From an uncultured Clostridia bacterium (GTDB lineage: Bacteria; Bacillota; Clostridia; Peptostreptococcales; Anaerovoracaceae), in assembly GCA_945644815.1 (NCBI GenBank), contig CALZFA010000005.1, positions 1-33,553 of the forward strand: a DNA stretch of 33,553 nt, given 5' to 3'. The position numbers and the translations under genes are program-made. Of the stretch, positions 1-6,501 are shown piece by piece. The notes beneath the pieces were generated by a model. That model was not told the origin of the DNA and did not search any database. It saw only the letters and a list, made by a program, of their open reading frames with translations. Each line of letters starts with the position of its first letter. Position 1 is the first letter of the stretch.

Positions 1-112
1 CAAAATAATCAGCAAAAGTTGCTTTTTCCTGAATATCGATGATTACTATATCCTGAGCTTTCTTGTCAGATAATGTTTTTGCCGCCAGAAGCGCATAATC
101 ACTATTGGTCAT
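1..112 (-). CDS. rsfS: Ribosomal silencing factor RsfS, N-terminal part (runs off window edge)
   Basis: My translation of the minus strand from ATG at 112: MTNSDYALLAAKTLSDKKAQDIVIIDIQEKATFADYF, which resembles RsfS N-termini; located after yqeK as is usual in Firmicutes; overlaps the yqeK stop. Confidence 0.85.
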   Translation of the reverse strand, partial: MTNSDYALLAAKTLSDKKAQDIVIIDIQEKATFADYF

Positions 113-698
113 TTTCTTCCTCCAGATTATTTTTTTCTTTTATAACCTTTTCCAAATATTTCTTGGCAAAGATTGTGTTCTCATCAAGATATTTACCTGC
201 CGATTGAACATAACTCGCCGTGTTTTTAAGAGACATAAGACAGGCTTTATCCAAGTCCTCATAAGCTGCTTTCCTGAGCTCGTCCACACCGGGATAGAAG
301 CGGTTAGGCTCTATAGCATCAGCAAGATATACTACTTTTTCCAGTGTAGACATCCCTGCCCTGCCTGTAGTATGATATGAAACAGCATTTATTATATCCG
401 GATCGGTTATCTCAAAATCTCTTTCCATTATAATGGCTGCTATTTTTCCATGAGCCAGATTGGCATTATCTATGTATTTGTCATCAAGCCCAAGATATTT
501 GACATAATAGTTCAGGGTTTTTTCTGCCACACCTCTGTACATATCATGGAAAAGTGCCGCAATCTCCGCTTTTTTAGGATCAGCGCCGTATTTTTCCGCC
601 AGTTTCACAGCAGTCTGTCTTACTCCTTCAGTATGAACCTTTCTTTTTTCTGAAAAATTATTTTCAATATAGTGTCTTATCTCACTCGTACAATCCAT
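102..698 (-). CDS. yqeK: HD-domain protein YqeK (bis(5'-nucleosyl)-tetraphosphatase-type)
   Basis: HD motif 'AALFHDMYRG', 'HGKIAA', 'YLADAIEPNR'; position next to nadD and rsfS. Confidence 0.93.
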   Translation of the reverse strand: MDCTSEIRHYIENNFSEKRKVHTEGVRQTAVKLAEKYGADPKKAEIAALFHDMYRGVAEKTLNYYVKYLGLDDKYIDNANLAHGKIAAIIMERDFEITDPDIINAVSYHTTGRAGMSTLEKVVYLADAIEPNRFYPGVDELRKAAYEDLDKACLMSLKNTASYVQSAGKYLDENTIFAKKYLEKVIKEKNNLEEENDQ

Positions 699-2055
699 TA
701 TCCTTAATGTACCTTTCTACTGACTCCGGCACCAGAGCTGAAACTGTTCTTCCGTTTTTTAAGGATTCCCTGATGTCCGTAGAAGAAATATCAGGCATCT
801 GCGCCGCCAGCTTAATGACTTTCGTATGGTATAAATCCTGATAGGTCTTTATTTTCTTATCCAGTTCATCTTCAATGTATCCCGGTCTCACGCTGACAAT
901 AAAGGAAAATTTCTCCAGAAGATCAACGCCCTTGTACCATCTGTCCACCTGCATAAATGCATCTGTTCCCGTAATGAAGAAAAGGTCTTTGCCCGGATAT
1001 TGTCTTTTTAGCTCTGACAGAGTATCAAAGGTATAGGATACTCGCATACGGTCAATTTCCAAAGCAGAAACCTCCGAGCCGGGAACATCTTCAAAGGCTA
1101 TCTTTGCCATTGCAAGCCTATGGTCGTCATCTGTCACCCTCCTGCCTTGCTTGAACGGCTGGATATATGCCGGCATAACGATGAGCTTCTCAAGTTGTGC
1201 TTCCGAAATTGCCGCCCTTGCAAGTGAAATATGTCCAATATGAACGGGATCAAAGGTACCGCCCAAAATGCCTATGCGATTAGAAGCATCCGAAGAAATG
1301 TCCCTTACCTTTATGTCTGACCCCTCTCCTTTCTTTTCTTCCGGAATAGGTCTCTGCATAAATTCAATCCCCATGTCGAAAAACGATTCACAATATTCTT
1401 TTATCTCAACTGACGGATTCTGATCTCTAAGAGCTCGCCAAAAAGCCTGAACAAAATCATCTTCTGCTCCCCAGCTCATATTAAGCGGTCCGCTCCCTCC
1501 ACCGGAGCCGACTGCACTGACTATCGCCTTTCCTTTTTTTATCAGCTGCGGGAACCATATCATTGTAACCGTCAGACTTGCATAAGACCTTGTCCTAATA
1601 TAATAACACTCAAATACTGCGGTTACAAAATAATACACCTCGTTATTGCTCGATGGAAATCGGACAATCTGCATCGGAGCTACAGGAGCATTTCCGGAAA
1701 TTGTCTTTCCCGCATTGTAAATCGCATCACAGCAGACACTGAAGGTGCCGTTAAAAGTCATCACCTTTTGTTTTTTTGTTTCCGTAGTGCCTCGAATTGA
1801 TGCCGCAATATCATCAAATTCATATCTGAGATACTTTTTTGCTTCTTCGCTCAGTGATGCATCAGGAAGAGCATCCTCAAAATTGCGTTTTGCCTCTTCA
1901 TAAGATTTATCGGAAACCGCTATCATAATATCCCGAAGCAACGTTCTTGCAATTCTGCCGCAATTCTTGCAAAAACTTTCTCCTTGATTTGCGAGAGAAA
2001 AAGAATCGTCAAAGAATGAAATCTTTTTGCCGCAGTTTATGCATTTCCTTGTCAT
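682..2055 (-). CDS. nadD: Fusion protein: N-terminal zinc ribbon + uncharacterised domain (DUF6054-like by recall) + C-terminal nicotinate-nucleotide adenylyltransferase
   Basis: C-terminal half 'RIGILGGTFDPVHIGHISLARAA...DLFFITGTDAF...ISSTDIRE' is NadD; N-terminal 'CINCGKK...FCKNCG' zinc ribbon and 'SYASLTVTMIW...VSAVGSGGGSGPLNMSWGAEDDFV'. One uninterrupted ORF. ATG at 2055 follows GAGG; the track start at 2061 is TTG. Confidence 0.9.
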   Translation of the reverse strand: MTRKCINCGKKISFFDDSFSLANQGESFCKNCGRIARTLLRDIMIAVSDKSYEEAKRNFEDALPDASLSEEAKKYLRYEFDDIAASIRGTTETKKQKVMTFNGTFSVCCDAIYNAGKTISGNAPVAPMQIVRFPSSNNEVYYFVTAVFECYYIRTRSYASLTVTMIWFPQLIKKGKAIVSAVGSGGGSGPLNMSWGAEDDFVQAFWRALRDQNPSVEIKEYCESFFDMGIEFMQRPIPEEKKGEGSDIKVRDISSDASNRIGILGGTFDPVHIGHISLARAAISEAQLEKLIVMPAYIQPFKQGRRVTDDDHRLAMAKIAFEDVPGSEVSALEIDRMRVSYTFDTLSELKRQYPGKDLFFITGTDAFMQVDRWYKGVDLLEKFSFIVSVRPGYIEDELDKKIKTYQDLYHTKVIKLAAQMPDISSTDIRESLKNGRTVSALVPESVERYIKDNGLYE

Positions 2056-2082: not shown

Positions 2083-3846
2083 CTATTCCACTGTGATTCC
2101 AAGTTCATCGAGCTGGGTCTTATCCACAGGTGCAGGCGCCTCACTTACCAGACATTGTGCGTTCTGATTCTTAGGAAAAGCTATCACCTCTCTTATGGAC
2201 TGCTCGCCCAAAAGCAGCATTACAAGCCTGTCCAGGCCGTATGCAAGGCCGCCGTGCGGAGGTGCACCGTATTTAAACGCTTCGATAAGGAAACCGAACT
2301 TTTCTTCACACTCCTCTTTGGAAAGACCAAGAATTTCGAACATTTTAGCCTGGAGGTCTTTATCATGAATTCTGATGGAACCTCCGCCCAACTCAACACC
2401 GTTAAGAACAATATCGTAAGCTTGAGCCTTAACTCTTACCGGATCAGTATCCAGAAGCGGAACCTGGTCAAGCTTTGGACAGGTGAATGGGTGATGCATA
2501 GCTTTAAGATTTCCGGTTTCATCGTCTTCCTCAAACATCGGAAAGTCTACAACCCATAAAAGATTGTACCGTTTGTCGTCCAAAAGTCCCATCATTTTTG
2601 CAATTTCTCTCCTAAGAAAGCCCAGCGTGTCAAATACAACCTTCGGCTTATCTGAACAGATAAGAATAAGGTCGCCTGGTTTTGCGTCAAAGACTGCTGC
2701 AATATTCCCCAACTCTTCCTGAGTAAAGAACTTGTTTACAGAAGAATTATATTCTTCTTCAGTGGCTCTTATCCATACAAGGCCCTTTGCACCATACGCC
2801 TTTGCCTGTTCCGTGAGCTTGTCTATATCCTTACGACTGAATTTTTCGCTTCCTCCGTCGATACATATACCTCTAACGTCTCCGCCTGCGGTCAGAGCAT
2901 CGGTAAAAACCTTAAATTCACAACCTGCGACCACGTGATTCAGCTTTTTAAGCTCAAAACCGAATCTTGTATCCGGCTTATCAGAGCCGTATCTTTCCAT
3001 AGCCTCGTCCCAGGTGATTCTCGGGAGAGGTGTCTTGATCTCAACTCCCATAAGTTCATAAAAGAGTTTCTTCAGAAAACCCTCCTGAATTTCTATAACA
3101 CCATCCATGTCAACAAAGGACATTTCGAGGTCTATCTGAGTAAATTCAGGCTGTCTGTCCGCACGCAGGTCTTCATCTCTGAAACATTTAACTATCTGCA
3201 TATATCTGTCAGTTCCCCCTACCATGAGAAGCTGCTTAAAAAGCTGCGGAGATTGAGGTAGTGCATAGAAAGATCCCGGATATACTCTGCTCGGTACAAT
3301 GTAGTCCCTTGCACCTTCAGGTGTAGACTTAATAAGCATAGGGGTTTCCACCTCGGTAAACCCACAGCTGTCAAAATAATCCCTGACCAGCTTAGTCACC
3401 TGATGGCGGAAAGTAAGGTTACGCTGCATCTTGCTTTTTCTTAGATCTAGATAACGATATTTAAGTCTGAGATTATCATCCACGTTATCATCATCTTTAA
3501 TGTATATAGGCGGTGTTTCGGCTTCTGAGTATATCACAAGATCAGAAGCAAAAACTTCAATTTCGCCGGTAGCTATGTTTAAATTCTTTGCACTTCGTTC
3601 ACAGACAGTCCCCTTGACTCCCACCACGTATTCGCTTCTCAGAGAATCAGCCCTGTTAAAAAGCTCTTCTGGGATCTTATCATCAAAAGTGACCTGTACA
3701 ATTCCGGTCTTATCTCTTAAATCAACAAAAATAAGTCCGCCCAGGTTTCTCCTCTTGGCTACCCAACCGTTGAGTATAACTTCCTCACCTACATTACTCA
3801 TACTGAGGCTGCCGCACATATGTGTTCTCTTAAATAATGTACCCAC
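2083..3846 (-). CDS. aspS: Aspartyl-tRNA synthetase
   Basis: Class II aaRS motifs 'FRDEDLRADRQPEFTQIDLEMSF', 'GGLAYGLDRLVMLL'; 587 aa. Confidence 0.97.
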   Translation of the reverse strand: MGTLFKRTHMCGSLSMSNVGEEVILNGWVAKRRNLGGLIFVDLRDKTGIVQVTFDDKIPEELFNRADSLRSEYVVGVKGTVCERSAKNLNIATGEIEVFASDLVIYSEAETPPIYIKDDDNVDDNLRLKYRYLDLRKSKMQRNLTFRHQVTKLVRDYFDSCGFTEVETPMLIKSTPEGARDYIVPSRVYPGSFYALPQSPQLFKQLLMVGGTDRYMQIVKCFRDEDLRADRQPEFTQIDLEMSFVDMDGVIEIQEGFLKKLFYELMGVEIKTPLPRITWDEAMERYGSDKPDTRFGFELKKLNHVVAGCEFKVFTDALTAGGDVRGICIDGGSEKFSRKDIDKLTEQAKAYGAKGLVWIRATEEEYNSSVNKFFTQEELGNIAAVFDAKPGDLILICSDKPKVVFDTLGFLRREIAKMMGLLDDKRYNLLWVVDFPMFEEDDETGNLKAMHHPFTCPKLDQVPLLDTDPVRVKAQAYDIVLNGVELGGGSIRIHDKDLQAKMFEILGLSKEECEEKFGFLIEAFKYGAPPHGGLAYGLDRLVMLLLGEQSIREVIAFPKNQNAQCLVSEAPAPVDKTQLDELGITVE

Positions 3847-5105: not shown

Positions 5106-6501
5106 CCTTTTTTACCTCCATAAAAATATTTTTTTCTTTTCTGTCCAGCATTTCATCTATTCTGGAAATATAGATTTCATAATTTGATACATTAGGAACA
5201 CGCTCAAGTCTGTTTTCCTCCGGGTAATACATCTTGCTGATGCCGCCTGCACCAAGAGCGAGTATGGTCTGATGTTCTTCCATAATTCTAATATTATATA
5301 TGCAAGGGGTGTCTTCCTTACAATAACCGACATTTTCAAATGCTCCGGCCATATGCTTCTGCCTGTACAGATAATAAGGTCTGTACCCGCGTTCTGCCAG
5401 CATTTTTCTGCCGTCATTGAGCATTTTTTTTACACATTCAGCCTGTCTATAATGGTAGTCCTTATCCAGTTCAATAAGCTTTGATGCCCTTTTCACTGCT
5501 AAAGTATGAACGGTAATATTTTCAGGCTCAAGGTCAATAATTTTTTTTAAAGTTTCAGTAAAATCCTCTGGCTCCTCCTCGGGAAGTCCTGCTATTAAAT
5601 CAGCATTAACTATAGGTATTCCGACACGGTCAGATATTTGAAATGCATTAACTATATCCTCAGGCTGATGAGATCTGCCTATTATTTCAAGGGTTTTCTC
5701 TTTCATTGACTGAGGATTTATGCTTATTCTCTTAACGCCGTGGTTTTTCATAATTTCAAGCTTATCAGGTGTAATAGTATCGGGTCTTCCTGCCTCAACG
5801 GTAAACTCGAGTGTTCGAGTAAGATCCATATTTTGTTTTACTGTATTTAACAAATCATCAAGTTGCGCGGCTGTCAGAGTGGTAGGCGTCCCCCCTCCGA
5901 TATATATGGCTTCAGGCCACAGCCCTGTTTCCGTCATCCTTCTGCCGGTATAAACTATCTCTTTTTTCAGTTCCTTAAGATACCTTGCAATTTCACTTTC
6001 GGAAACCTGGTTTGAAGTAAATGAACAATAGAGACATCTTGTGGGGCAAAACGGAATACCGATATATACACCGACGGAATGTGGGTCAGGTCTGCCACAG
6101 ACTTGTTGCTGATAGCTGTATGTATCGACAAGAAGTTCCGCTTTTTCTTCGCTGAGAAGGTAATTGGAAATAAGCTCATTCCGTACAGCATCTATATTTC
6201 CCAGCTTTTCAAAGATTTCTCCTGTAAGCTTCGCAGGTCTTACTCCCGTTAGTATTCCCCATGGAGGCCGTTTTCCTGTTTCAGAACTTAAATACCTGTA
6301 AAGCTGACGCTTTATCTCATTCTTGTCTGCGGAAAGCTCATTGTTGAAACAGACTATATCCCCCGCTTTTTTTTCATGTTCAGGCAGAGCATCAAACTCT
6401 TCCTGCGTATATGCCCTGAATTCATCCTGTGAAACAAATACCTTAATTAGTTCAATAAAGTCGTACTTGTTTGAAACGTTTTTTATAACAAATTTATACA
6501 A
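5077..6501 (-). CDS. hemZ: Radical SAM coproporphyrinogen dehydrogenase-like protein HemZ
   Basis: 'IGIPFCPTRCLYCSF' CxxxCxxC motif, 'YIGGGTPTTL', HemN/HemZ C-terminal region; 474 aa. Confidence 0.9.
   Translation of the reverse strand: MYKFVIKNVSNKYDFIELIKVFVSQDEFRAYTQEEFDALPEHEKKAGDIVCFNNELSADKNEIKRQLYRYLSSETGKRPPWGILTGVRPAKLTGEIFEKLGNIDAVRNELISNYLLSEEKAELLVDTYSYQQQVCGRPDPHSVGVYIGIPFCPTRCLYCSFTSNQVSESEIARYLKELKKEIVYTGRRMTETGLWPEAIYIGGGTPTTLTAAQLDDLLNTVKQNMDLTRTLEFTVEAGRPDTITPDKLEIMKNHGVKRISINPQSMKEKTLEIIGRSHQPEDIVNAFQISDRVGIPIVNADLIAGLPEEEPEDFTETLKKIIDLEPENITVHTLAVKRASKLIELDKDYHYRQAECVKKMLNDGRKMLAERGYRPYYLYRQKHMAGAFENVGYCKEDTPCIYNIRIMEEHQTILALGAGGISKMYYPEENRLERVPNVSNYEIYISRIDEMLDRKEKNIFMEVKKDVNKRTKRN

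Follow-up and report, generated by a model that had tools for sequence, protein, structure and literature searches.

A zinc-ribbon and DUF6054 head on NadD in a clade of the Anaerovoracaceae

What is an apparently ordinary enzyme of NAD synthesis doing at the end of a much longer protein? The question is raised by a gene of an uncultured Clostridia bacterium of the family Anaerovoracaceae, located in a window of 33,553 nucleotides (the whole stretch of DNA analysed, contig CALZFA010000005.1). A sequence-only reading had seen there a NadD preceded by a zinc ribbon and an uncharacterised domain, and had proposed a regulatory or scaffolding coupling between the two halves.

A single gene between aspS and yqeK

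The gene (682..2055, minus strand) encodes 457 residues in a single uninterrupted open reading frame, in the order zinc ribbon, helices, DUF6054, linker and NadD. The stop-free frame extends from 682 to 2061 on the minus strand and begins with TTG, with an ATG at 2055, six bases inside. Relatives start at the ATG matching 2055, preceded by a ribosome-binding site of the GGGAAGGG type, so that 682-2055 is the right gene, as first proposed; residues are numbered here from that ATG. The surroundings are normal for nadD, in a row hisS-aspS-nadD-yqeK (hisS being putative, named from its sequence): aspS (2083..3846, minus strand) lies directly upstream, while the 3' end of the fused gene shares 17 bases with yqeK (102..698, minus strand).

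The NadD domain (nicotinate-nucleotide adenylyltransferase; residues 259-457 and the stop, 682..1281, minus strand) is complete. Equivalog models of NCBIfam give full-length matches above their curated cut-offs (NF000840, 190.5 bits for a cut-off of 150; TIGR00482, 184.3 bits for a cut-off of 112.45), Pfam also matches CTP_transf_like (PF01467) in this part, and structures 1kam and 8aih are matched in the PDB. The GGTFDPxHxGH and ISSTxxR motifs of the family are intact, as GGTFDPVHIGH (the HxGH nucleotidyltransferase motif) and ISSTDIR, and the yqeK neighbourhood is the usual one. The difference from ordinary clostridial NadD, with open frames of about 190-250 residues, is in the extra N-terminal residues, about 258 of them and not the 245 or so estimated at the outset, with NadD beginning at about residue 259-262. 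No canonical nadD other than the fused gene turned up in the genomes carrying the fusion, so that the fused enzyme presumably works; these genomes are drafts (that of the window is 86% complete), which leaves a slight chance that a second copy lies elsewhere in them. An internal re-start that would yield free NadD was rejected: the linkers of the fused genes share no conserved start codon preceded by a ribosome-binding site, and the linker in the window does contain AAAGGAGAGG, but with no ATG, GTG or TTG close behind.

Could the joining be an accident of sequencing or assembly? The genome is a fragmented draft of 136 contigs, and this would be the one point in favour of that explanation. Yet the fused frame occupies the same place in seven other genomes, with 41-74% identity over its length for the four best, and eight independently assembled genomes with the fused frame rule the artefact out, leaving it hardly any credit. 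No stop or frameshift separates the two parts: the frame is open here and intact in relatives, as the first reading had it.

The components of the head

At the very N-terminus (residues 1-36, 1948..2055, minus strand), the cysteine pattern and a profile match point to a zinc ribbon of the DUF4428 type, with cysteines C5, C8, C29 and C32. The ribbon had thus been rightly recognised, its spacing less so: it reads C-x2-C-x20-C-x2-C, where some 22 intervening residues had been counted. The four predicted zinc-ribbon cysteines are invariant in nine of the nine aligned copies, including two that are devoid of the DUF6054 signature. The Pfam model of DUF4428 (PF14471) fails to match the protein of the window up to an E-value of 5 and weakly matches three of the seven N-termini scanned (best E-value 1.3e-4). 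In a profile comparison by hhalign of nine such ribbons with four DUF4428-headed proteins (three heads above the cut-off and one below), the probability reached 96.9% over 40 columns. The likeness to DUF4428 zinc-ribbon proteins thus comprises the ribbon pattern, its placement at the protein start and the profile match; the tails differ, SHOCT, YbjQ or DUF3320 there, DUF6054 and NadD here. Ribbons of this type do sit at the head of otherwise unrelated clostridial proteins with these three kinds of tails (L148, L149, L107, L108). The ribbon is followed by a helical stretch (residues 37-94, 1774..1947, minus strand), apparent in the alignment and the AlphaFold model, with helices predicted at 30-44, 49-65 and 70-87.

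The next domain (residues 95-216, 1408..1773, minus strand) belongs to DUF6054, a resemblance that had been suggested and is now borne out: residues 142-210 score 42.5 bits against Pfam PF19524, for a cut-off of 27 (model positions 44-108 of 111), and the same model matches all seven intact N-termini scanned. The family signature, E, R, GG-x-G, N and WG, invariant across the 17 sequences aligned, is kept in the protein of the window (E149, R154, GG-x-G at 186-189, N192, W195-G196). DUF6054 proteins are usually free, about 110-130 residues long, whereas this copy is part of a fusion and is preceded by a zinc ribbon. Modelled alone by AlphaFold (pLDDT 85.5, pTM 0.80), the domain is predicted to be beta-alpha-beta4-alpha, in keeping with the earlier impression of a beta-rich extension. 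No credible sequence relative of DUF6054 was found in the PDB; the best fold matches of the model there are mostly of the SRPBCC/START/Bet v 1/PYL type, the top one with an E-value of 4.6e-5 and a probability of 0.99. Because their TM-scores are just 0.24-0.45, with an rmsd above 11 Å, where a confident superposition on an SRPBCC/START-like fold calls for a TM-score above 0.5, a START-like fold is a lead, not a proof. In the literature searched, no paper mentions DUF6054, an absence that is weak evidence since most subscription journals fell outside its scope.

Between head and enzyme stretches a linker (residues 217-258, 1282..1407, minus strand), presumably flexible in view of its low model confidence (AlphaFold pLDDT below 50 for residues 223-254). 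It is the fastest-evolving part of the protein, with 46% identity between the window's genome (G000; other G numbers are relatives compared) and G003. The model of the whole protein, based on 17 sequences, displays ribbon, three helices, domain, linker and NadD with a mean pLDDT of 80.5 and a pTM of 0.48, a low value that would fit domains loosely joined, although it is no proof of it.

Spread, losses and constraint

A survey of NadD architectures across Clostridia had been proposed; in the searches described here, the same fusion turned up in seven further genomes, within three genera of one clade. Among 61 genomes, full-length matches are present in G000, G003, G005 and G001, four of the six genomes sampled from one genus, and in G033, with whole-length identities to the protein of the window of 74% (G003), 47% (G033), 43% (G005) and 41% (G001). 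A search of 351 genomes of the family with the N-terminal alignment added three fused copies (G200, G166, G180) and one pair of adjacent frames (G134), confining the nadD-linked module to three related genera of gut bacteria. The order aspS-[fusion]-yqeK is found at the same locus in G000, G001, G003, G005, G033, G166, G180 and G200. In none of the 351 genomes, including the fusion-less congeners G002 and G004, was a free zinc-ribbon-DUF6054 gene found away from nadD, and in samples of the order and class DUF6054 was met only as a free protein, besides ribbon proteins of other kinds. The fusion-carrying G033 and G005 have free DUF6054 genes as well (L036, L150), so that the fused domain is not the sole DUF6054 of these organisms. 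Within short flanks, the neighbours of free DUF6054 genes disclosed no informative recurring partner; a HisS-like gene lies nearby in eight loci, several of them from the same or related genomes.

In the class as a whole, NadD open frames are mostly about 190-250 residues long, and four of the five longer frames read have NadD at their N-terminus. These four (G616, G557, G689, G680), considered as candidates for the same fusion, were set aside: where scanned, their C-terminus is HD/YqeK, and Pfam confirmed two of the four as NadD-HD (YqeK-type).

In a tree of AspS, NadD and YqeK, the three genera constitute one clade (bootstrap 91, SH-aLRT 96), and the sister group, G024 and G008, has plain NadD. 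That the module-bearing genera form a single clade argues for a single gain. Its fate afterwards was varied. G002 and G004, of the first genus, are devoid of the N-terminal module and branch at separate points between fused relatives, a pattern suggestive of two losses, although support for the G003/G004 fork is low (87/59). The copies of G166 and G180 show decay of the DUF6054 signature (R, GGG, N-x-x-WG) but retain all four cysteines as well as FW in the final helix. The simplest account is a single gain with later losses and decay, replacement at the locus through recombination being a further possibility. G134 is a case apart: there, the zinc-ribbon-DUF6054 frame stops just before nadD, which is differently framed and has its own ribosome-binding site. 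Ahead of the nadD ATG, its frame stays open for 41 codons, and the two frames are parted at the junction by one base of an A6 run (L063, ~5378-5410), which may reflect gene fission, an indel of the draft assembly or slippage.

Between G000 and G003, dN/dS is 0.14 in the N-terminal region, 0.09 in NadD and 0.29 in the linker; the corresponding values for G001 and G005 are 0.20, 0.05 and 0.22, all of them rough as synonymous sites are near saturation. The head is clearly under purifying selection, with a weaker constraint than NadD. At larger distances it evolves much faster, with about 27-37% identity against 52-57% for NadD. The module is not obligatory, and since two congeners do without the extension and two copies without the DUF6054 signature, any regulatory or scaffolding coupling of the kind first proposed has to be optional.

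What the head may do for NadD

The reading that we tentatively prefer, at somewhat less than an even chance, is that a zinc-ribbon/DUF6054 adaptor on a loose linker localises or modulates an otherwise normal NadD. A gene for a small protein, made of a DUF4428-type ribbon, helices and DUF6054, would have come once between aspS and nadD, in the ancestor of the three genera; while clade and synteny are observed, it would probably have been inserted first and only then joined in frame to nadD. The product would be a normal NadD bearing an adaptor head via a flexible linker. Through its zinc ribbon, the head might anchor NadD at a site in the cell or link it to a partner or to itself, and DUF6054 might be a small domain sensing a ligand or a partner, modulating this tethering. 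Given the losses of the head and the decay of its DUF6054 half, NadD catalysis does not depend on it. A role as an adaptor or in localisation is what we infer from the persistence of the ribbon, from ribbon heads elsewhere, their varied tails (SHOCT, YbjQ, DUF3320) being as expected of an adaptor, and from the placement of DUF4428 in SNIPE nucleases: those lacking a transmembrane helix may have an N-terminal DUF4428 or PH domain instead (PMC13190303). The protein of the window itself has no match to a defence system in PADLOC.

Nearly as likely, at about one chance in three, is that the head is a passenger: the loss of a stop codon between neighbours would have joined an unrelated small protein to NadD, the head would go on with a role of its own, independent of NAD synthesis, and the link would be one of co-expression only. 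The separate adjacent frames in G134, the two losses and the two decayed DUF6054 domains, together with the loose linker and fast evolution, are all consonant with this. Against it, the link has been kept in eight genomes of three genera, no free zinc-ribbon-DUF6054 gene away from nadD was found in the family, and the four cysteines and C-terminal FW helix outlast the DUF6054 signature, which suggests that the head keeps a role in its fused context. Following a more specific track, DUF6054 could be a miniature helix-grip domain (SRPBCC/START-like), binding a metabolite and setting NadD activity allosterically. The mostly START/Bet v 1/PYL-type fold matches and the conserved E, R and GGG-loop residues would agree with such a sensor, while the poor superpositions leave the fold match a lead and the flexible linker speaks against tight allostery of this sort; as the signature decays in two fused copies, allosteric sensing is possible but not favoured, and we hold it unlikely. 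The broader proposition that these bacteria control NadD post-translationally through a fused zinc-ribbon/DUF6054 sensor is doubtful as well. If true, it would give DUF6054 its first function and the NaMN adenylyltransferase step an unusual direct control.

A last comparison is with the fusion of NadD to YqeK in mycoplasmas (JCVI-Syn3A), which has a proof-reading role (PMC9426524). By analogy, the head might be a proof-reading or repair partner, a very improbable reading given that YqeK is already next door as a gene of its own and that DUF6054 matches neither a hydrolase family nor a hydrolase-like fold. In both types NadD is joined to a neighbouring operon partner; in NadD-YqeK, also known from some Clostridia, this partner is a C-terminal HD hydrolase, whereas here it is N-terminal and matches no enzyme family. 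Elsewhere in this family, other genera have NadD and YqeK fused in a single frame (L016, L021, L025). The statement that NadD normally stands alone was therefore too strong, in view of the published case and of those in the host's own family.

To be sure, the impact of the fusion is limited by its narrow spread, three genera, and by the apparent dispensability of the module. As far as searched, this clade-limited NadD architecture is real and previously undescribed: the literature covered, which left out most subscription journals, had nothing on point about zinc domains or N-terminal domains fused to NadD, nor any description of this head as a NadD-associated domain. Together with NadD-YqeK, it makes two known kinds of NadD fusion. 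DUF6054 is a widespread clostridial family. Its natural and mostly retained union with an essential, well-understood enzyme offers a first way to find out what it contacts, with fused, unfused and half-decayed copies inside a single clade as natural comparisons. Apart from this locus, the genome of the window (G000:C48; L110, L118) and many relatives have a frame of about 1,550-1,700 residues in which a nucleotidyltransferase domain distantly resembling NadD (CTP_transf_like, 33.8 bits) is accompanied by a weak match to a phosphoribosyltransferase; such frames recur in many of the genomes sampled from the order.
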